IMG/VR virus record: IMGVR_UViG_3300042568_000467
Span: 27,439 to 91,438 of that record
Reading direction: 5' to 3' (one strand)
DNA length: 64,000 bases
Source: a virus
Shown: piece after piece, positions 1-47,954 of the stretch
Position numbering within the stretch: position 1 is the first letter of the stretch
Layout: every line of letters starts with the position of its first letter
Translations under genes and position numbers: made by a program
Notes under the pieces: generated by a model
What the model saw: only the letters and a program-made list of their open reading frames with translations
What the model was told of the DNA's origin: nothing
Databases searched by the model: none

Positions 1-211
1 CATATGATATATTGTCAAAGTCGTTATGTAGTATAAATGAAATATCTTTTTTAAAAGATATACCCCAGCCAAGCTGATTTGCAAGGCTCATCGGAAAACA
101 ATGATAAGCTTGTCTACCTGGCGTTTCTTCCATCCAATCTCTATTAACTGGTAACGGAGATATGGTAGCCGAATCGTTATGCAAGGCGTAGGCATCTATA
201 CTTATTGTCAT
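1..211 (-). CDS. DUF6065-like protein, partial (3' end beyond window)
   Basis: The reading frame is open from an ATG at 211 to the window edge and gives about 70 residues of the N-terminus. It aligns clearly with the complete protein at 44276-44992: both have R-x-WM-x-ET near residue 30, then AY-x-CFP, then a NQ-x-GWG-x-SF segment. This is the N-terminal signature I associate with the DUF6065 family, whose function is unknown. An AGGTAAAG Shine-Dalgarno (SD) sequence lies about 10 bases upstream. The gene follows the MazG-like gene by 16 bases and is probably co-transcribed with it. The paralogue 44 kb away sits inside the oxygenase array, so this copy may mark a second such cluster beyond the left edge (inference). 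Confidence 0.7.
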   Translation of the reverse strand, partial: MTISIDAYALHNDSATISPLPVNRDWMEETPGRQAYHCFPMSLANQLGWGISFKKDISFILHNDFDNISY

Positions 212-227
212 TCTAGTTATACTTTAC

Positions 228-575
228 CTAGAATAAGTTTCCATGAAGTCTTGGACGCTCTTTATTTATATTTATTTTAGCCTCTAAAATTTCATCTAAA
301 CTATGTGTAACCTGCTCTTCATTTCTCATTGCAGCATAAACATCTAGCAGGCGAATAATAACATCTGCCATTTCCTCTACAATATGTTCGCTTCCCTTAG
401 ACTTTCTAATTGCTTCTAATACTTCAGTAACTTCTGAATGTACAAGGGCAAGCTTGTTTCCAATCTTGTCATTAGAATAATCTCCATCCCAAAACCCCTT
501 TTCTATTGCTGTTTCATGAAGCATTGCTGCTAATGCATCAAGGCCATACTCTGTTAAAACACTATTGCTGTTCAA
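228..575 (-). CDS. mazG: MazG-like nucleotide pyrophosphohydrolase
   Basis: A 115-residue protein with the all-helical MazG/NTP-PPase pattern: an E-x-x-E-type helix (HSEVTEVLEAIR) followed about 20 residues on by EEMADVIIRLLD, which supply the acidic Mg2+ ligands. The family hydrolyses NTPs or (d)NTPs to monophosphates; phage copies are thought to adjust nucleotide or ppGpp pools. The start is a TTG at 575 with a good SD (AAGGGA) six bases upstream; no ATG fits this position. It overlaps the preceding small gene by 14 bases, so it is translated as part of the replication operon that begins at 4234. Confidence 0.85.
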   Translation of the reverse strand: MNSNSVLTEYGLDALAAMLHETAIEKGFWDGDYSNDKIGNKLALVHSEVTEVLEAIRKSKGSEHIVEEMADVIIRLLDVYAAMRNEEQVTHSLDEILEAKININKERPRLHGNLF

Positions 576-38936: not shown

Positions 38937-40691
38937 TTATATGCTTTGTAGAACGACCCAGTCATTATTATAATACTTTGTGGCTAATTCTGTCATGGTT
39001 ATGGCATTTTCTGTAATTGATTCCACAGGCTTTCCGCAATAAAGCTCGAAGTGGGTTTCAATTTTTGATGCTGTTAACTCAGAGTTGTAGGTAGCAATAT
39101 TCTTATAAAGGTTGCTTGGCCCTCCCGACCCCGACATAAGCTCATAATTAAATCTTAATTCTGCAGTTACTGGATCAGTAAATACGATTACAATGTGATG
39201 TGGCTCTTCTTCAACTAAATAGGAACTAATGTTTGTTTGATTAGTTACATCTACATTGTTTACATATATCTTGGCTATATTGGCCTTAGAAACCACTCCA
39301 GAGCCGTTCCAGGCTAGTCTGGTAGTAGAAGGGTTGTAGGCATACAAAAGGGTGTTAGCGGCCAACGTAAGGGGCGTAAAGAACATCTCTATAGACTTCA
39401 CAGAAGTAGATGAATTTAAACTAAATCCTGATCCACTTTTAGCCCTAATTCCATTCATATAATGTCTTGATAAAATTGGGTAATTCAAGGAGCCTAAGTA
39501 ATAATCAGTTGAAGAGGTTATTTTATCCCCAAAATTATCTGCATATATTGTTCTATCAGCATAAAATGTTATACAAAAGAATGATAGTTTTGGTAGATAT
39601 TTGCTTGCATCTGTAGTAGACATTGTAATTCTAATGTATACGTTACCGCTAGAGTTAAATGAATCTTTAGTATATTGTGGCAATGGCTGTCCATTTACAC
39701 ACTGAGAATATGCAATTCCATCTACACTAGACTCTACTGTAATTCCTAGATCATTCCGCCATTCAATTTTTGAAGTAGTTAAGCCTATTTGTGAAGGAAC
39801 GAAAAAGTAATCATTTATGATAAAGGTTTTGGCTTCGACTGTATCTGTTTTATAAAAAGAAATGTATCTGTTATTTGAATCGTAGTATGTGTTTTCATCT
39901 ACAAAATCTGACCACGCCTTGCTTGCTGGATATGAGTAGTCCATTACAGCTTTAATGTTTGCATCTGTTCCAGTGAATAATATTCCTTTATCTGGATAAA
40001 CAACATTAATTGCGGAAGTAGAAATATTTCCATCTACATAATGCTTTCTTATAGAATCAGGCTGTAGTCCATATCTGTATACAGCTGGAGCATCTATAAT
40101 AAATGTATCTCCGACAACTGATGTTGGGCCTACCTGTAATCCTAGTGTTGTGTTTGTAAATTTAAAATTAGATAAAGCTTTGGAGTCAACGGCAAATGAA
40201 TCTATATATAGGGTAATAGCTCCTACTGAGTAAACTCCGACAAGGTGTATGGACTTCTTACTGTATGTAACGCAGTATCTAATTGATTCTGTGTCTGATA
40301 CCTTAAATAATATATCTCCATTTTCCCAGAATAAACCTATGTCATTTGTTGGGTCTGCAAATATTGGTGTCTCTGAAGAAGATTCAATTGATGGGTGTAT
40401 CCATGCCTCTATTGTAAAATCATTATCTGAAGTATATTTTGTTCCAAAGCCCGCTCCGACAGTTGCTCCATAATAATCTTTTGTAACAGGTAAAGTTATA
40501 TATGCTGTATTTGTAATGCGGGTTCCAGAAACTCCACCAGAAACTAAGGGAAGTATATTTGATACAGGAGATCCTACATAGGTAGCATTATTTCCACATC
40601 CAGAAATATCTGTAGCGGTTGTACCAGAAGACTCATCCAGGGGCCAGAAGCCTATTGGGTAGTCCTTGATAACCTTCATCTGATATGTCAT
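38937..40691 (-). CDS. LamG/concanavalin-A-like structural protein
   Basis: A 584-residue protein. The N-terminal domain (residues 10-225) is LamG-like: IGFWPLDESSGTTATDISGC, then FTIEAWIHP near 90, GLQVGP, and a closing strand. A second beta-sandwich domain (about 400-520) has IRAKSGSGFSLNSSTSV followed by IEMFF and HHIVIVFTDP, again jelly-roll in pattern. Proteins of this kind occur as phage head or tail decorations that bind sugars. It has its own leaderless promoter (TATAAT, six bases, ATG) and lies between the oxygenase array and the head module. Confidence 0.65.
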   Translation of the reverse strand: MTYQMKVIKDYPIGFWPLDESSGTTATDISGCGNNATYVGSPVSNILPLVSGGVSGTRITNTAYITLPVTKDYYGATVGAGFGTKYTSDNDFTIEAWIHPSIESSSETPIFADPTNDIGLFWENGDILFKVSDTESIRYCVTYSKKSIHLVGVYSVGAITLYIDSFAVDSKALSNFKFTNTTLGLQVGPTSVVGDTFIIDAPAVYRYGLQPDSIRKHYVDGNISTSAINVVYPDKGILFTGTDANIKAVMDYSYPASKAWSDFVDENTYYDSNNRYISFYKTDTVEAKTFIINDYFFVPSQIGLTTSKIEWRNDLGITVESSVDGIAYSQCVNGQPLPQYTKDSFNSSGNVYIRITMSTTDASKYLPKLSFFCITFYADRTIYADNFGDKITSSTDYYLGSLNYPILSRHYMNGIRAKSGSGFSLNSSTSVKSIEMFFTPLTLAANTLLYAYNPSTTRLAWNGSGVVSKANIAKIYVNNVDVTNQTNISSYLVEEEPHHIVIVFTDPVTAELRFNYELMSGSGGPSNLYKNIATYNSELTASKIETHFELYCGKPVESITENAITMTELATKYYNNDWVVLQSI

Positions 40692-40712: not shown

Positions 40713-41309
40713 TTACCTTTTATAAAAGAATATGGGAATTAGATATTTGTTCCCAGAGGTTGTTTCTGCAGGTTCATGAAATGTGTCCTTTGACTCAAAA
40801 ACAACAACGCTTCCAGCTTCTGGCTTAATGGATATATTGAAATCTGGAAAGTTTATCTCTCCGCCTTCATAGTCGTCATTTAAATAGACAACCATTGAAA
40901 CCGTTAGTGGATCTTGGTCATCATCATATGAGTCTATGTGGGATCCCATATATGCGCCAACATCATACTTCTTAATAAAAAAGGTTGTGGGCAAATATCC
41001 TGGCTCAATACCTGTATCTTTGCAAAAAGACTCTTCGATATTTATAACTTTGTAAGCTAACATAGAGCAAAGCTTTGAGTTTATTTTATCTCCGACTGTT
41101 TGATTTTTAAAATTGTTAAGTCGACATTCCTTTTGTTTACCAAAAACATCATTGGTTCCAGAAGAAGATCTCCACTCTTGCCATGGACCTATTTGTGGAA
41201 CATAAGATGGATCTAGATCAGACTCCTCTAGTTCTTTTAAAAATAGACCTGGATCCTCAATAACATTTCTGTAGTAATGCACCTTAGGATGAAGAACTTC
41301 TTTAATCAT
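40713..41309 (-). CDS. 2OG-Fe(II) oxygenase, prolyl-4-hydroxylase type (array member 6)
   Basis: A 198-residue double-stranded beta-helix enzyme. Iron ligands are H124 and D126 (GSHIDS) and H178 (FHEP); K188 (GNKYLI) is where the 2-oxoglutarate carboxylate is bound. The VYLNDDYEGGEI stretch is shared by the entire array and typical of P4H-like enzymes. It would couple decarboxylation of 2OG to hydroxylation of a protein or small-molecule substrate, here unknown. Last gene of the oxygenase operon; its start overlaps the previous gene by eight bases. All catalytic residues look intact. Confidence 0.88.
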   Translation of the reverse strand: MIKEVLHPKVHYYRNVIEDPGLFLKELEESDLDPSYVPQIGPWQEWRSSSGTNDVFGKQKECRLNNFKNQTVGDKINSKLCSMLAYKVINIEESFCKDTGIEPGYLPTTFFIKKYDVGAYMGSHIDSYDDDQDPLTVSMVVYLNDDYEGGEINFPDFNISIKPEAGSVVVFESKDTFHEPAETTSGNKYLIPIFFYKR

Positions 41310-42009
41310 ATTTTGCCTTATATTGTAAAGGAGTTCCTTCTTCTTTAGCCTTAGCCCATTCCTTGTAAGTTTCTTCTTGCTCGGCTCTTGTTTGCTTCAA
41401 TTCAGCTTCCCACTCCGCTATTTGTTCTGGAGTGTATACAGCATCAGCATTATCCCAAAAAGATCCTACTGTATATCTTTCTGCATTCTTAACAGTTGAC
41501 ACTTCGTGCTCGTTGCCATAACCACCTTTAAAGAATGCTAGTCTTCCTGGCTTTGGTTTAATGACTATGTCATGATGCTTAAAGTTTAAATCTCCACCTT
41601 CAAAATTATCATTTAAATATAGGAATCCAGCATATTTACTTTTATAAAATGCAGAGGGAGTTCCATCTTCATGAGTATTGTCTGAATGAAAACTTGCAAA
41701 CGCACCGACTACCCACTTTTGTGCATGATAACTAACTTCAGATAGCTCTCTACCAAAACATTCTTCTCCAGCCTTTTTAATTTTTTCTTTCAGTTGTGAA
41801 AAATAATCTCTTGGTAAGCCAAATAACAATAGGTTGTCATCGTGTGGCCAATATCCCATTGCAAAAGATCCGTAGAATGAGATTTGATTCCATTCTAAAA
41901 ATCCTGCATTTACAATTCCATCCAGATATCCAATAATTGCACTACATTCTTCTGGTGTTATTAGATTATCTACAACAAAAACGTCATCCTTTAGCGTTAC
42001 AATTTCCAT
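41302..42009 (-). CDS. 2OG-Fe(II) oxygenase, prolyl-4-hydroxylase type (array member 5)
   Basis: A 235-residue enzyme with H108 and D110 (FHSDN), H168 (NEHEVS) and R178 as the 2OG-binding residue (AERYTV; most other members use Lys). The core signature is LYLNDNFEGGDL. A charged helical tail of about 45 residues (EWEAELKQTRAEQEETYKEW) follows the catalytic domain and is unique within the array; it may bind a partner. The start overlaps the previous gene by 26 bases. Confidence 0.88.
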   Translation of the reverse strand: MEIVTLKDDVFVVDNLITPEECSAIIGYLDGIVNAGFLEWNQISFYGSFAMGYWPHDDNLLLFGLPRDYFSQLKEKIKKAGEECFGRELSEVSYHAQKWVVGAFASFHSDNTHEDGTPSAFYKSKYAGFLYLNDNFEGGDLNFKHHDIVIKPKPGRLAFFKGGYGNEHEVSTVKNAERYTVGSFWDNADAVYTPEQIAEWEAELKQTRAEQEETYKEWAKAKEEGTPLQYKAKYD

Positions 42010-42865
42010 AGCCAGCTTCCTCTTCTCTTTCTAATGCCTCTAATGCATATTGTATATCTTGTTCAGACGGCATAACTCTTACGCCATCTTTAAAAACTAT
42101 ATTGCCTCCGTAAACATCTTCGGCCATTCTTCTTCTCTCCATTTGAGCCCACTTAACTGCTCCATACTTTGATTGATTAGCTAGCCACTCTTCAGACCCT
42201 TCGTATGGGTAAAACATAAAGTTTCTAATTAAATATTTATTTCCCTGGGTTGCTGTTCTCACTCCATGATAGTAAGGCTCTCCTGATGGGAATACCATAA
42301 TGTCCCCTGCTTCTGGTTTGTAGGCTGGAACAAACTCTCCGTCTACATAAAACTCAATTTCTCCACCTTCATAATCATCATTTATATAAACAGTACAAGT
42401 TATAAAAAATTGATTACCAGGCATATCTTTTTCTGTTTGCTTAAAATCAGTATGAAATTGCATAGTTAGATTATTTTTTAAAGTGTCTACATTTGTATGA
42501 TATTTACAAAATGATGAGGATCCTAACTCAGAATCTTTTGGAAGCTCTACATTATACTTTTCAATATAATGATCTAGTGCTACATTGTATGCGTCAAAAA
42601 CTGTTTCGGCAGCCCAGTATTCGTTATCAAATGTTTCATTTTTTCCAAGCTGGTCTTGGACAGCATCTTTATGCTTTGTACTTGAGTATAAGCCAAATGC
42701 ACTCCATTGATACCACGGATTAAAATAATGTTCTCCAGAGTCTTTATCTTCCTCCGTTAAACCTTCTGTTGATTTTATAATTTCAAAGATCTTTTTATGA
42801 TCTGGTAGCAACCCTTTGTATACTTCAATTTTAGGGTATAACGTTTTTGATACTATATCACTCAT
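41984..42865 (-). CDS. 2OG-Fe(II) oxygenase, prolyl-4-hydroxylase type (array member 4)
   Basis: At 293 residues the longest of the array. Catalytic residues: H138 and D140 (FHTDF), H200 (YYHGVR) and K210 (GNKYLI), with YINDDYEGGEI between them. The N-terminal 130 residues are a helical extension with an aromatic stretch (FNPWYQWSAFGLY). A charged C-terminal segment of about 70 residues (KWAQMERRRMAED and later EALEREEEAG) lies outside the fold. Starts four bases inside the previous gene (ATGA). Confidence 0.88.
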   Translation of the reverse strand: MSDIVSKTLYPKIEVYKGLLPDHKKIFEIIKSTEGLTEEDKDSGEHYFNPWYQWSAFGLYSSTKHKDAVQDQLGKNETFDNEYWAAETVFDAYNVALDHYIEKYNVELPKDSELGSSSFCKYHTNVDTLKNNLTMQFHTDFKQTEKDMPGNQFFITCTVYINDDYEGGEIEFYVDGEFVPAYKPEAGDIMVFPSGEPYYHGVRTATQGNKYLIRNFMFYPYEGSEEWLANQSKYGAVKWAQMERRRMAEDVYGGNIVFKDGVRVMPSEQDIQYALEALEREEEAGYGNCNAKG

Positions 42866-43533
42866 TCTGAATCCTTATCTAACTTAGAGATTGTCCAAAA
42901 CCAAGGCGATGTGTATCTGGTACCTGCTGTAATTACATCGACACCATGAATATAATTCAAGTCTCCAGGGAAAAAATATGCTGCTTTTCTTTTAGGTCTT
43001 ATTGCTACATCCTGTTTTGGAAAATGCAGTCTTCCGCCTTCATAATCTTCGTTTAAATAAAATATTGTTCCAATGTCATACCACGGGAAGTTTCCAGGCT
43101 TTCCAGCATCTGGACCTTCATGTAACTCTTTATCTGCATGTGGCCACTGCATAGACCCTACTGGCCATCTGACCAAGCATGGTCCTGTTGGATAAACCTC
43201 TACATTAAAATGCTTTTCGATAACTGGCTTTAGCCTTTGGATAATCTGCTCTAGCATTACTGACACTTCGGGATTTCCTTTATCTAAAGAAGCTCTTGTG
43301 GCGACACGATCTCTCCATACGTCGTGCTGATAAATTACTGTTCCGTTTTCATTAACCACATCTTGTCCACCGTCCCAAATAGTGTTACCCTTTACATAAC
43401 TTAACAGAAATTCACACTCTTCTTCTGTAAGAAAGTTTTCCACCTCAACAATATTTTCTTTTCCTGCTCCAAAGTATCCTGAGGGTGTAATTGAGGTTCT
43501 ATGTGTTCTTAAATCAGATTCATTAACGTGCAT
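42862..43533 (-). CDS. 2OG-Fe(II) oxygenase, prolyl-4-hydroxylase type (array member 3)
   Basis: A 223-residue enzyme with H132 and D134 (WPHADK), H196 (YIHGVD) and R206 (GTRYTS). The signature FYLNEDYEGGRL is present. The N-terminus (ENIVEVENFLTEEECEFLLS) is the usual capping helix of P4H-like enzymes. SD AGGTAG and a 17-base gap precede it, so this gene may start its own translation unit within the operon. Confidence 0.88.
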   Translation of the reverse strand: MHVNESDLRTHRTSITPSGYFGAGKENIVEVENFLTEEECEFLLSYVKGNTIWDGGQDVVNENGTVIYQHDVWRDRVATRASLDKGNPEVSVMLEQIIQRLKPVIEKHFNVEVYPTGPCLVRWPVGSMQWPHADKELHEGPDAGKPGNFPWYDIGTIFYLNEDYEGGRLHFPKQDVAIRPKRKAAYFFPGDLNYIHGVDVITAGTRYTSPWFWTISKLDKDSE

Positions 43534-43550
43534 TTTTTCTACCTATCATC

Positions 43551-44279
43551 TTATTCATATTTCTTGGGGACCCAAGTTTTTTGTTTGTAAACTCCAAATT
43601 TTTCATTTCCAAGCTCGTCTTGCCTGTAAATTTTTGTATGAGCTTCATGCTTTTCAACCATTTCTTCTTGTGTAAAAAGGTTAACTTCAGACGTCCATTC
43701 TTCTCTTTTATAAGGAAAAATTTGAGCGTAAGGAGTTCCTTTTTTAATAATACCTTGAAAAGTATTCTTTATAAAAAATGGCATAAGTCCTGGTGGCCCA
43801 TACCTATCACTGTCAATTATACCGCTTGTAGTCAAAAAAGGCAGCTCAAAATGATTTATCGGATGTGTTATTAAAGCGCTATACCCCTCTGGCAAAGTAA
43901 ATCCCCAGTTTGGATACCAATGATATGACTGCTTATAGTATCCATCTGGATAATAAAACTCACCCATATGAGGTCTAGAGTCACAAAATCCTTCAAACCC
44001 CTTTTCTGGTTGAATATAAGTAACTTCATTATAGCTGGAAACAGCAACATCGCATGGAGTTGTTAACATATATCCAGATGAAAATACATCAAGTAGCGCT
44101 GGGCACGATTTAAATCCAGGGCCTTTTTTGTTTTTAGGTGGAAAATCTATAACCTTATTATCTTTGTCTGTCCAGTATTTACTGGCATTTAAAAACCAAT
44201 TTGGGGTTGTTTTTTTTGCAGGAGACGGAGCGGTGTCCTTGTTATTATAAACTCTATTTGAATTAAAAACAATTTTCAT
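43551..44279 (-). CDS. DUF6065-related protein in oxygenase array
   Basis: A 242-residue protein of a type I recall from cyanophage genomes, often next to 2OG-Fe(II) oxygenases. Signature parts are CPALLDVFSSGYMLTTPCDV, GYSALITHPINHFELPFLT with GIIDSD, and a closing FQGIIKKGTPYAQIFPYKRE. The last part aligns with PFVPITIKANEPFIAIMPI in the neighbouring protein at 44276, so the two are distant paralogues with a cupin-like beta fold (inference). No HxD iron triad is seen, so it is probably not an oxygenase. Role unknown; starts four bases inside the previous gene. Confidence 0.65.
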   Translation of the reverse strand: MKIVFNSNRVYNNKDTAPSPAKKTTPNWFLNASKYWTDKDNKVIDFPPKNKKGPGFKSCPALLDVFSSGYMLTTPCDVAVSSYNEVTYIQPEKGFEGFCDSRPHMGEFYYPDGYYKQSYHWYPNWGFTLPEGYSALITHPINHFELPFLTTSGIIDSDRYGPPGLMPFFIKNTFQGIIKKGTPYAQIFPYKREEWTSEVNLFTQEEMVEKHEAHTKIYRQDELGNEKFGVYKQKTWVPKKYE

Positions 44280-44992
44280 TTTGTTAAATCTTTAACTCCA
44301 AGCTTGATCGATTTAACTTCATGTTCCCCTAAATGGTTTCCCATGTAGTCTACAGCATCTCTATAGTAATCAGTCCATGTTCCTTCAGAATTTGCTTTTT
44401 CTGCTGCTTTCATGGCACCCTCCATTGTAAGCGGTATATCTCTTTTAATTAAAGGAGCATTTCTTTCTTCATCTAAATTAACTGTAGAATTATTTAAGTC
44501 TGTAAGAGATATTGGCATAATTGCAATAAATGGTTCATTCGCTTTTATTGTAATAGGGACAAAAGGTCTGGTAATTTTCCAGGCTACTGGTAGTGGGCCT
44601 TCAAAAAAAGATGTACTTAATATACTAGTAACCGCACTTGCCCCATCTGTAAAACTATTTGGAACTGGAAAGGAAAGAAGGCTATAGTTTTTATCAGTGA
44701 CAAAACGTAGGTTAGTTTTAAAATTAATTGTTGCGTGTCCCCTACCCGTTTCACAATATTTTTCTCCCTGAAGGACTTTAACGTTATCTGGATAAGTACT
44801 AGTAATTCCATCCCACATAAATGTTATATCTTCAGGGAAAGATAGCCCCCAGCCAACCTGGTTACTTAAAGTTAAAGGGAAACATCTATATGCATGCTTA
44901 TGGGTAGTTTCGTCCATCCAATTTCTTTTTGCAGAAAGTGGAACTATGTTTGCAGAAAAATCTGAAACTTTATAAGCATTTAAATTAATCAA
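44276..44992 (-). CDS. DUF6065 family protein in oxygenase array
   Basis: A 238-residue protein with the family signature R-x-WMDET, AYRCFPLTLSNQVGWGLSFP near residues 33-53, and the closing beta segment PFVPITIKANEPFIAIMPI. A truncated paralogue is seen at 1-211. Function is unknown; the genes recur next to oxygenases and sugar-modifying enzymes in phages, as far as I recall. Coupled to neighbours by overlaps of eight and four bases, hence obligately co-expressed with the oxygenases. Confidence 0.72.
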   Translation of the reverse strand: MINLNAYKVSDFSANIVPLSAKRNWMDETTHKHAYRCFPLTLSNQVGWGLSFPEDITFMWDGITSTYPDNVKVLQGEKYCETGRGHATINFKTNLRFVTDKNYSLLSFPVPNSFTDGASAVTSILSTSFFEGPLPVAWKITRPFVPITIKANEPFIAIMPISLTDLNNSTVNLDEERNAPLIKRDIPLTMEGAMKAAEKANSEGTWTDYYRDAVDYMGNHLGEHEVKSIKLGVKDLTK

Positions 44993-45740
44993 CTGATTTC
45001 TCTTCCATTAATTGTTCTGCTGGCTTAAACTTTTTCCCTTCAGTAATATGATTATATTCATAGCTAGCTTCAATTTCTCTGTACAGTGGTGTATGTGGAG
45101 CCTCTTGATAATCTAGCATGGTTACAATTGCATATTTTGTTCCTGATGTTACTGGCATTGCAGCATGAGAATATATAAAGGAAGATGGGAAAAGATAAAG
45201 GTCTCCAGCTCTTGGCTTTACCTTAACGCCAAGCTTGTCAAAAAATAACTCTCCTCCTTCGTAATCGTCGTTTATGTATCCAACTGAAGATAAAACGCAA
45301 ACGTAGGAGTACCCGTGATCTGAGTGAACATTAAAGTGTTGATTTTTACCATACTTAATAAAATTAAAAGCTTCCCAATAATTCAATGGTGGAATTTGAA
45401 ACATATTCATGTAGTCATAAACTGCTGAAAGTTGAGCAGCCTTTGACTCTCTCCAAATACTGCGTAGCTCAAATTCTTCTTCTGTGAAGTCTTCTGGCTC
45501 GACGTGTGTTCCGTTACCAAGCATTAAGGATCCGCCTTGGTTTTCTTTAATCTTGAAATCCCAAGCATCTCTATAATCTTTATTTAGGGTGTCGTATCCA
45601 GTCTGAGCAAGGTTCCAGTGTTTCTTGCCTTGTGTTTTAGAAAGAACAGATTCTAGTCTAGTGTCTAAATTATATTCTTTTTTAAATACATCTCTATATA
45701 CAATAATTCCTGGATAAATTGTTTCTGCATTTGGTAGCAT
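44985..45740 (-). CDS. 2OG-Fe(II) oxygenase, prolyl-4-hydroxylase type (array member 2)
   Basis: A 251-residue enzyme with H139 and D141 (NVHSDH), H192 (YSHAAM) and K202 (GTKYAI), plus YINDDYEGGEL. It is a close paralogue of the next gene upstream (45741): both begin with YPGI, both carry FPSSFIYSH and SGTKY then VTMLDY, and the spacing agrees. The pair looks like a recent tandem duplication. SD GGAG precedes the ATG, which abuts the previous stop. Confidence 0.88.
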   Translation of the reverse strand: MLPNAETIYPGIIVYRDVFKKEYNLDTRLESVLSKTQGKKHWNLAQTGYDTLNKDYRDAWDFKIKENQGGSLMLGNGTHVEPEDFTEEEFELRSIWRESKAAQLSAVYDYMNMFQIPPLNYWEAFNFIKYGKNQHFNVHSDHGYSYVCVLSSVGYINDDYEGGELFFDKLGVKVKPRAGDLYLFPSSFIYSHAAMPVTSGTKYAIVTMLDYQEAPHTPLYREIEASYEYNHITEGKKFKPAEQLMEEKSVD

Positions 45741-46367
45741 TTAATTTGACTCCTTCTTATGCTTTTTGTCAATATAGTCATCATATTCTTTTGAATGGGC
45801 ATCATCGTTATAGTCTAACATGGTGACAAAAGAATACTTGGTTCCAGAATTTACTGGAAGAGCTATGTGAGAATAAATAAATGAAGATGGAAATATAATT
45901 AAATCACCAGCTTTAGGCTCTATGTGTAAATCAAATTTAGGGAAAAACAATCCTCCGCCAGTATAGTTATCATTAGGATATCCTACCAAAGAAACGGCGG
46001 ATTTGTATGACCAACCGTCGTCTGAATGCTCCTTAAAATATTGTCCTTTTCCATACTTTACAACATTTGTCCATTCCCAAAAATCCATTCTAATACTATA
46101 CATTTCGCAGTAATCTAGCACGGCTTCTTTTTGACAATTATATATGTCATTATATATATCTATATATTCTGGTAAATTATACATCTTGAGATCTTGGCAA
46201 TCTCTATACTCTAGATCCTGATCTTCTAAGCATACGGTAGCTGTATTCCATTTTAAAACACCAGAATCTACCTTATCTTCAATTCTTTGAATTAAGTTTA
46301 AATCTTCTGGGAAAGAATTTGGGTATTTCCATATGCCAGGATATAGTTGTTGTTTATTATATATCAT
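45741..46367 (-). CDS. 2OG-Fe(II) oxygenase, prolyl-4-hydroxylase type (array member 1)
   Basis: A 208-residue enzyme and first gene of the array operon. Iron ligands H114 and D116 (KEHSDD) and H167 (YSHIAL); K177 for 2OG. The array signature is slightly changed to YPNDNYTGGGL. No SD lies before the ATG at 46367; instead a full promoter ends six bases upstream, so the message is leaderless. Upstream lies the proline-repeat/Hint protein, whose last codons overlap the -35 box. Confidence 0.88.
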   Translation of the reverse strand: MIYNKQQLYPGIWKYPNSFPEDLNLIQRIEDKVDSGVLKWNTATVCLEDQDLEYRDCQDLKMYNLPEYIDIYNDIYNCQKEAVLDYCEMYSIRMDFWEWTNVVKYGKGQYFKEHSDDGWSYKSAVSLVGYPNDNYTGGGLFFPKFDLHIEPKAGDLIIFPSSFIYSHIALPVNSGTKYSFVTMLDYNDDAHSKEYDDYIDKKHKKESN

Positions 46368-46373
46368 AAATAC

Positions 46374-46402
46374 ATAATATCATATTTAAAAAACCTAGTC
46401 AA
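46374..46402 (-). promoter_or_regulatory. leaderless promoter of the oxygenase operon
   Basis: Minus strand TTGACT (46402-46397), exactly 17 bases, TATTAT (46379-46374), six bases, ATG at 46367. The -35 overlaps the final codons and stop of the proline-repeat/Hint gene. The consensus spacing makes this one of the best promoters in the window. Confidence 0.75.
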
Positions 46403-47954
46403 TAGTATCTTGTAGGGTTTTACATCCGTTGTAGGCTAGCATTGACTCTGCAATTAATAGCCCCCAAGGTTCTCTATAAATCAAATACACCTTGGTGTCC
46501 TTTTTAACAATTTCAACCTTTTCAACATCTATAAATTCTAATTCATTGTCTTTATAGGATACAATTTGATCGCCTTGTTTTAATTTAGAGCTTGTAATAA
46601 ATTTGTATTTATTTGCTCTTTTTATTAAAATCTGTTCTTGTGTTGATAAATCATACTTTTCTTCATCATTTATTCTAACAATTGAAGCGTAGTCTTGTTC
46701 ATTAATATCAAAGACTGTTGACTCAATGTAAGAAACATTTTCTAAAGAATCAGAGTTCCATGCATCTACAAGAGATATGCATTTCTTTGAAACTGAACCA
46801 ATAGTACAGTTTGGATCACCTTCTGGAATTTCGTCAAAGACTGCAGTTATAAGAATGTCGCCATTAACAATTTCTTTAGCTTTCTTATATCCGTCTTTTG
46901 TTAAGACGTTAGTGTTTTCTGGAATACAAAATCCTGGAGGACCAAAGAATCTAGGTGGCGAGAAGAATCCTGGAGGACCAAAAAATGTTGGTGGAGCAAA
47001 GAATCTCGGTGGGCTGAAGAACAGCGGCGGGCTGAAGAATCTAGGTGGGGTAAAGAACAGCGGTGGCACAAAGAATCTTGGCGGGGTGAAGAACAGCGGC
47101 GGGCTGAAAAACAGCGGTGGGCTAAAGAATAGTGGTGGCACGAAGAACAGCGGCGGGCTGAAAAACAGCGGCGGGCTGAAAAACAGCGGCGGGCTGAAGA
47201 ATAGTGGTGGGCTGAAAAATAGTGGTGGGGCAAAGAACAGCGGTGGGGCGAAAAATAGTGGTGGTGCAAAGAATCCTGGAGGAGAGAAGAATGTTGTAAC
47301 CTGATTAGATGTTGTTGGTGTTGAGTTTCCGTTTGCATTTACGGCAACTACGGTATAAGACTGGGTTGTTCCCATTGTTTCTCTGATATTAATTGTTGTT
47401 GCTGGTGGATTTCCAACAACCTCATATGGAGATGCTAATCCTCCTGGTTGAGCAGAGCTGTCTGAAGAAGTAATTATATACTTAGTTAAAGGCTTGCCTC
47501 CAGAAGTTGAAGCAGACCATGAAACAGTGTCTTGTCCTCTTAAATCGGTTGTGCTATGTCCTGGACCAGTTGTATTAGATGTTGAAGTTACTGTTGCTGG
47601 AGCAGCTGGAACTGTAGTAAATGTAACAGAAGATGAAGCAGCTGATGCTTCTGACTGACCATTAGCATTTGTTGCTTTTACTGTAGCTGTACCAACAGCT
47701 CCTTGAGGAATACCAATAACCGTAATAGGCGAAGATGTTCCAATTTCTGAAAATGATCCTTGTGCGCCACAATTTACAACAACTGTATAGCTTATAATTG
47801 GTAACTGATCTGGTGGATAATCAAAAGATACTACTGCTGCTGCATTATTAAATGGGCGATTCGTTCCAACATCTGTTAGAGTTACATTGATAGGTGGTAC
47901 TGGTAATTCAAAATCACCAGATAATTGAGCTCTTCTACCAACTTTTTTTGCCAT
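46395..47954 (-). CDS. FN3 / FF-x-PP-x repeat / Hint-domain structural protein
   Basis: A 519-residue protein with three parts. Residues 20-220 hold two FN3 domains (conserved AVNANGNS- and SYTVVAVNA-type strands). Residues 222-342 are twenty tandem hexapeptides F-F-x-P-P-x (x is mostly S, A, V or T before PP, and L, R or G after). Residue 343 is a cysteine that begins a Hint domain of 177 residues: CIPENTNVLTKDGYKKAKEI, then NGD, a block-B-like STQEQI, a KLKQGD turn and a C-terminal LLIAESMLAYNGC. The usual block-B His is Gln441 and the usual penultimate His is Tyr508 before N509, so classical splicing may be impaired. It is followed directly by the prolyl-hydroxylase operon, which makes its prolines plausible substrates (inference). 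SD AAAGG precedes the ATG. Confidence 0.78.
   Translation of the reverse strand: MAKKVGRRAQLSGDFELPVPPINVTLTDVGTNRPFNNAAAVVSFDYPPDQLPIISYTVVVNCGAQGSFSEIGTSSPITVIGIPQGAVGTATVKATNANGQSEASAASSSVTFTTVPAAPATVTSTSNTTGPGHSTTDLRGQDTVSWSASTSGGKPLTKYIITSSDSSAQPGGLASPYEVVGNPPATTINIRETMGTTQSYTVVAVNANGNSTPTTSNQVTTFFSPPGFFAPPLFFAPPLFFAPPLFFSPPLFFSPPLFFSPPLFFSPPLFFVPPLFFSPPLFFSPPLFFTPPRFFVPPLFFTPPRFFSPPLFFSPPRFFAPPTFFGPPGFFSPPRFFGPPGFCIPENTNVLTKDGYKKAKEIVNGDILITAVFDEIPEGDPNCTIGSVSKKCISLVDAWNSDSLENVSYIESTVFDINEQDYASIVRINDEEKYDLSTQEQILIKRANKYKFITSSKLKQGDQIVSYKDNELEFIDVEKVEIVKKDTKVYLIYREPWGLLIAESMLAYNGCKTLQDTID
46929..47291 (-). repeat. 20 tandem 18-bp repeats encoding FF-x-PP-x
   Basis: Twenty 18-bp units in frame, with a coding consensus close to CCGCTGTTCTTCAGCCCG. 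The units are much richer in GC than the surrounding gene and vary mostly in third positions and in the x codons, so the array is kept at protein level while expanding and contracting as DNA. All frames stay open across it, which creates long spurious ORFs. Confidence 0.95.

Follow-up and report, generated by a model that had tools for sequence, protein, structure and literature searches.

Two neighbouring virus genes, here called S and D, almost certainly encode two paralogous branches of one superfamily with the dUTPase fold, a judgement that covers fold and kinship jointly. Within the window (the whole 64,000-nucleotide stretch of DNA analyzed, bases 27439–91438 of a 91438-base virus record), both genes interrupt a series of six 2OG-Fe(II) oxygenase genes (40713–46367, minus strand), and their operon, judged together with its genomic habitat, probably serves the modification of tail proteins. 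Our preferred reading, which we rate at slightly below an even chance, is that S and D do not clean up dUTP and would instead be a repurposed dUTPase-fold pair, acting as a ligand-binding or substrate-holding platform for this modification. The dUTPase fold is already known; what is new is its use beside tail-modification genes, paired with a paralogue that has no pocket.

Gene organization of the cassette

All genes of the cassette are on the minus strand. In the direction of transcription it begins with a gene for a repeat protein (46395–47954), followed by the first oxygenase (45741–46367), a second one (44985–45740), D (44276–44992; 238 aa, TTG start), S (43551–44279; 242 aa), and four further oxygenases (42862–43533, 41984–42865, 41302–42009, and 40713–41309), and it closes with a laminin-G/ConA-like protein that is probably a tail component (38937–40691). 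All six oxygenases have the HxD motif and five the distal H + K/R pattern, the exception being the one at 41302–42009, where the regular expression matched HxD and not the distal motif. Five also scored above the Pfam cut-off, among them the proteins at 41984–42865 (profile match) and 40713–41309 (2OG-FeII_Oxy_3, with the HxD...H...K motif), while the one at 42862–43533 fell slightly below it (25.3 bits, cut-off 27) and matched phrog_61 at 3.1e−15. Three more 2OG-type oxygenase genes occur in the same phage record, away from the cassette (L002, 2768–4001; L003, 1393–2478).

The preliminary description had read S, D and a third copy at the left edge of the window as translated in step with oxygenases or with a MazG gene, and the distances bear this out: D overlaps the preceding oxygenase by 8 nt and S by 4 nt, a gap of 17 nt separates S from the next oxygenase, and 16 nt lie between MazG and the third copy. 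The overlap of D with S was present in 61 of 68 non-redundant junctions. The third copy is of the D type and is represented in the window by its N-terminus only (1–211, minus strand; ORF 2–211). The sequence to the left of position 1, where further array genes had been suspected, completes this DUF6065 gene (233 aa; L003, 11948–12649), which is placed between a MazG-type pyrophosphohydrolase gene (228–575, minus strand, 5′ of the copy) and a RecA-type gene, and no oxygenase was found near it. As the window's MazG recurs in 6 of 20 related records and none of these six has an adjoining DUF6065 gene (in one of them, G046, a third D lies about 2.4 kb from MazG), the linkage looks like a one-off event, and a nucleotide role via MazG was rejected.

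Family membership and kinship of S and D

D belongs to the Pfam family DUF6065 (PF19541; 1.7e−32, 113.2 bits, cut-off 26.6), as does the third copy (88.4 bits), which shares 38% identity with D across its own length, and the likeness claimed earlier for these two proteins is thereby upheld. S is a member of phrog_7084 (3.1e−34, profile positions 5–239 of 240), a family that D also matches in part (2.4e−6); both families are listed as of unknown function. S itself matched no Pfam family at E ≤ 1 and so did not reach the DUF6065 cut-off, and among its S-type relatives 15 of 80 matched DUF6065 at E ≤ 1 (best 3.3e−9). Neither S nor D had a match in NCBIfam.

Pairwise BLAST gave a weak link between S and D (E 0.007). 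The profile comparison that had been proposed as a check was significant, with E 1.9e−6 for the first alignments and 2.4e−8 (probability 95.3, 131 columns) for alignments of 80 and 64 sequences, and an iterated search seeded with either protein picked up the other in round three. S had been described as a distant relative sharing only a C-terminal segment with the D type; the distant relationship is confirmed, whereas the restriction is not, as S 58–204 pairs with D 36–176, so that the alignment spans the entire core and is not confined to the C-terminus. A scan of genome contigs for bacterial DUF6065 proteins yielded a single relative among 76 pattern matches, on JAFMJX010000128.1 (L190). This contig comes from a bin labelled Chitinophagaceae MAG; since it bears the phage cassette, along with the Phe-Pro repeat protein, it is probably a phage contig.

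Predicted dUTPase fold

The GIIDSD...GTPxxQ of S resembled motifs 3 and 4 of dUTPases, and the fold was therefore put to the test. AlphaFold2 models, built from the window sequences and related loci, had pLDDT values of 92.5 for S and 95.0 for D. Searched with Foldseek against the PDB, the D model retrieved 23 chains at E ≤ 1e−3, every one a dUTPase, and the S model two (dCTP deaminase and dUTPase, Sulfolobus tokodaii; 3.4e−4). With VIA-align 2, all 50 of 50 rows were dUTPases for each model, the top one for D having Z 11.4 (rmsd 5.4, 122 residues) with a tighter superposition on 2hqu_A (Z 11.0, rmsd 2.5, 109 residues), and the best for S being 2y8c_C (Z 10.9, rmsd 2.9, 123 residues). TM-scores normalised by query were modest for both (about 0.3–0.4), in part because S and D bear extra N- and C-terminal stretches. 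In the viral fold library, the 12 top rows were uncharacterised or unnamed proteins, and dUTPases came next.

At the profile level, S aligned with 24 true dUTPases (26 matches minus two of ≥ 230 aa) at E 2.6e−4, placing its GIIDSD on the GLIDSD of Escherichia coli. The score of 33.5 compares with at most 21.3 in 60 column shuffles, none of which attained it, and an oxygenase profile used as control did not rise to that level. The D profile scored 17.8 against the dUTPases, inside the shuffle range, and since it fails to reach them directly, the case for homology of D to dUTPases is made through S and the fold. Among PDB sequences, matches of the D profile were limited to a single viral dUTPase, represented by two sequences (E 0.35 and 0.5, non-significant alone), and the S profile had no match at E ≤ 10. 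The models, taken with these alignments, predict for S and D the trimeric dUTPase/dCTP deaminase (beta-clip) fold. Their likeness to this group (PF00692) covers the predicted fold over approximately 110–125 residues and, in S, the motif-3 Asp and the motif-4 Gln; they differ from it by an extra N-terminal insertion and C-terminal tail. As a side observation, positions 127132–127587 of MG065691.1 ('Campylobacter phage A11a') correspond to E. coli dut (100% identity over 152 aa), probably a contamination of that record.

Pocket residues and the possibility of an active hydrolase

In dUTPases, the catalytic residue is the leading Asp of motif 3, motif 2 binds phosphate, and motifs 4 and 5 are also functional. 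Residue 156 of S (motif 3, G-x-[IV]-D) is Asp in 220 of 235 sequences and Glu in 11, while Gln186 (230/235), Lys191 (221/235), and Arg192 (229/235) are similarly conserved; the S of the window retains both Asp156 (in GIIDSD) and Gln186. Judged by these residues, S seems to possess a functional pocket. By pattern, motif 4 with its Gln was found in 221 of 235 S, 2 of 118 D, and 23 of 24 true dUTPases, whereas motif 2 (P-R-S-G type, including the RS of dUTPases) was present in 1/235, 0/118, and 22/24, and motif 5 (the glycine-rich C-terminal arm) in 0/235, 0/118, and 21/24, respectively. At the position of the S Asp, D mostly has Ser or Thr; its catalytic pocket, including the catalytic Asp, is lost, and it has an invariant set of its own (Asn44, Gly47, Asn112, and His224, each in 118 of 118). 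Because S is without motifs 2 and 5 and D without the catalytic pocket, canonical dUTPase catalysis by either protein is unlikely.

The strongest rival to the platform is that S is an active nucleotide phosphohydrolase: a dUTPase that has diverged but would still hydrolyse dUTP or a different nucleotide, possibly a nucleotide-linked donor, with D as its inactive partner subunit. We regard it as unlikely. The residues kept in the S pocket argue for it, but the missing motifs 2 and 5 and the Tyr after motif 3, present in only 66 of 235 S, argue the other way. The genomic contexts described below are similarly divided: thymidylate synthase or ribonucleotide reductase (RNR) genes are found next to S in haloviruses and near it in S-RIM4, and the third copy adds, weakly, its MazG linkage, yet both of the cyanophage S copies that lie away from the tail cassette, one of them near RNR, carry His in place of Asp156, and true phage dUTPases sit among replication genes. 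A Pfam dUTPase is absent from the window's phage and from 10 of 11 other records searched, which is consistent with an enzymatic role for S, while HSTV-4 encodes S as well as a true dUTPase. A simple replacement of dUTPase by S was rejected on this last point, and also as the records without a Pfam dUTPase, the window's phage among them, may be fragments.

Association with oxygenases

Each scan for related loci gave the best 80 of 392–593 confirmed matches, so the neighbourhood fractions below describe samples and not the whole family; the first set comprised 189 sequences including the window, and a later scan contributed 77 further distant loci. In these best-80-per-scan samples, an oxygenase was located at ≤ 3 kb from 113 of 117 non-redundant D and from 128 of 231 non-redundant S (31 of 121 in the distant sample), against 4 of 81 true phage dUTPases from 80 viral loci, likewise a best-80 sample. 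No oxygenase at all was found in 57 of the 77 distant S loci. The link to oxygenases is thus real; within the sample it holds for nearly every D but for only a part of the S proteins, and the earlier statement that the family is always next to oxygenases is largely right for D and wrong for S and for the third copy; the enrichment over true dUTPases is accordingly clear for D and partial for S.

The commonest gene string in the first set, with redundancy retained, was OODSOOOO (O = oxygenase; 57 loci). The conserved cassette runs from a Phe-Pro-repeat tail protein through oxygenases, D, S, and again oxygenases to a tail protein; linkage to oxygenases marks one large clade. Loci with several S or D copies (SS, SSD, DDS) also occur.

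Association with tail genes

For S outside the oxygenase cassettes, neighbours were tallied in 63 loci, all loci with any oxygenase being excluded (148 of 184 eligible neighbours scanned), and for true dUTPases in a parallel set (148 of 251 eligible neighbours scanned), with proteins of < 100 aa and > 1,100 aa omitted. Among the 25 commonest neighbour PHROGs of oxygenase-free S, 16 were tail, virion-structural or phage hyaluronidase families, four concerned replication or DNA methylation, and five were unnamed, whereas none of the 25 top PHROGs of the dUTPase neighbours was tail-labelled, these being clamp loaders, helicases, single-strand binding proteins, recombinases, and unnamed families. 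Even where oxygenases are lacking, S is thus mostly found beside tail-fibre genes. Pfam matches among the 148 S neighbours included tail collar (6), Mtd_N (5), collagen (3), Trp_halogenase (3), and DnaB (4); some neighbours of S are replication genes (DnaB, primase). Glycosyltransferases (GlcNAc family 3, Glycos_transf_1 3, Glycos_transf_2 2, of 148) were too few to count for a role in sugar handling, which was rejected, as no glycosidase, epimerase or sugar-binding fold was among the matches. The substrate-delivery or sugar-handling step proposed earlier thus loses its second half, while substrate delivery comes close to the platform that we favour.

The cyanophages syn9 (gp38–gp54, with S as gp43) and S-RIM44 have tail-fibre assembly genes, two tryptophan halogenases (the identity in syn9 being confirmed by profile), S, and then a row of 2OG oxygenases. 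The tail-fibre assembly genes, S, and the oxygenase row are like those of the window, while the two halogenases are additional and no D was seen. In both phages S retains the motif-3 Asp (GILDPK), and the S copies found outside the tail cassette, in S-RIM4 (near RNR A/B) and Sf-CH8 (near psbA), have His for Asp156. In some viral contigs, halogenase-like genes with a WxWxIP motif also adjoin S copies or separate them from one another (L226, 5936–7495; L255, 7875–9470; L269, 2326–3915). Inside the oxygenase rows of syn9 (L295, 8601–14064) and S-RIM44 (L294, 10365–13585), some genes are annotated in GenBank as 'minor coat protein', 'DNA endonuclease V', and 'ferrochelatase'; these names seem to have been wrongly propagated onto 2OG oxygenases, because the oxygenases of the window match PHROGs named endonuclease V or ferrochelatase. 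In the parts of the account by PMC3037559 that deal with them, cyanophage oxygenases are discussed as DNA repair or 2OG/nitrogen genes, not as tail modifiers.

Among haloarchaeal viruses, 49 records matched S, and the three inspected had one S each, adjoining the tail module. There, S is also next to thymidylate synthase (HRTV-7, HSTV-2) or class II RNR (HSTV-4), and in HSTV-4 it is opposite in strand to the tail genes.

Such tail-fibre-type neighbours would also suit virion proteins, with S and D as beta-clip trimers capping or decorating trimeric tail fibres, and the repeated copies per locus and the trimeric nature of the dUTPase fold would agree with this. We nevertheless hold it to be quite improbable, given how strongly S conserves residues of catalytic type and the strand of S in HSTV-4, and rank it after the hydrolase. 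Last comes a role in host takeover or counter-defence, which we consider very unlikely, with S and D as sponges of signalling nucleotides or as regulators like the dUTPases of staphylococcal phages. The latter (80alpha, phi11) signal to pathogenicity islands and keep the dUTPase motifs; they share the fold and were among the top structural rows for D, but no sign of a role in pathogenicity-island signalling was seen for S and D. An altered pocket on a dUTPase fold and the S copies among metabolic genes fit such a regulator, whereas the main clade is placed in a tail operon, with S translationally coupled to D and oxygenases, and PADLOC, which covers defence and not counter-defence proteins, gave no match for either protein.

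The Phe-Pro repeat protein as candidate substrate

Preceding the cassette of the window is a gene (46395–47954) that encodes 19 tandem PPxFF units, an array that is also visible in the DNA. The stretch past the repeats presumably resembles a Hint/intein-type domain; Pfam gave only a weak fibronectin III (fn3) match. Of 89 cassette loci having an upstream gene, 55 encoded a Phe-Pro repeat protein in one of the first two genes on that side, against a background of 132 among 1,435 other ORFs (≥ 150 aa) in the loci, a figure in which those cases and redundant copies are counted. Collagen-like proteins followed the cassette in 16 of 79 loci. Since its proline-rich repeats adjoin prolyl-hydroxylase-like oxygenases, the repeat protein is a natural candidate, and a likely one, for the hydroxylase substrate.

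A possible platform for tail-protein modification

The dUTPase fold is trimeric and its active sites are formed between the subunits of the trimer, so the pairing of S with D suggests a mixed trimer. The two proteins, apparently made as a translationally coupled pair from an operon with a probable role in modifying tail proteins, could form such a (hetero)trimer as a platform, to which D would lend shape and S the pocket. The platform would bind a ligand or a tail protein and present it to the adjacent prolyl-hydroxylase-like oxygenases and, in cyanophages, also to the halogenases. In the phage of the window, the Phe-Pro repeat protein would be the likely substrate presented. Several points weigh against this reading: the TM-scores of the predicted models are modest, the D profile does not reach dUTPases, the motif-3 and motif-4 residues of S could instead signal an active enzyme, nucleotide contexts exist (thymidylate synthase, RNR, and MazG for the third D copy), some S neighbours are replication genes, and no fusion of S with D, or of either with an oxygenase, was found in the loci analyzed. 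A more specific version, in which a dUTPase trimer was turned into a platform of pocket-bearing S and pocketless D that installs modified residues on tail fibres, is conceivable but rather doubtful. We are just as reserved about its details, namely that these residues would be hydroxylated (in cyanophages perhaps halogenated) and that the Phe-Pro hexad repeats would be the substrate track.

In our literature search, no mention of DUF6065 or phrog 7084 was found, and nothing that links dUTPase-like proteins, phage and tail fiber. The present comparison unites these two function-unknown families in one superfamily with a named fold, specifies residues to mutate, and places the phrog_7084 type across haloarchaeal viruses, cyanophages, and freshwater phages. 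It also suggests a site of action for many unexplained phage 2OG oxygenases, namely the tail proteins, among which the repeat protein is a concrete candidate for the substrate. The more specific version above would, if true, give phages an assembly line for post-translational modification that is devoted to the receptor-binding parts of the virion.
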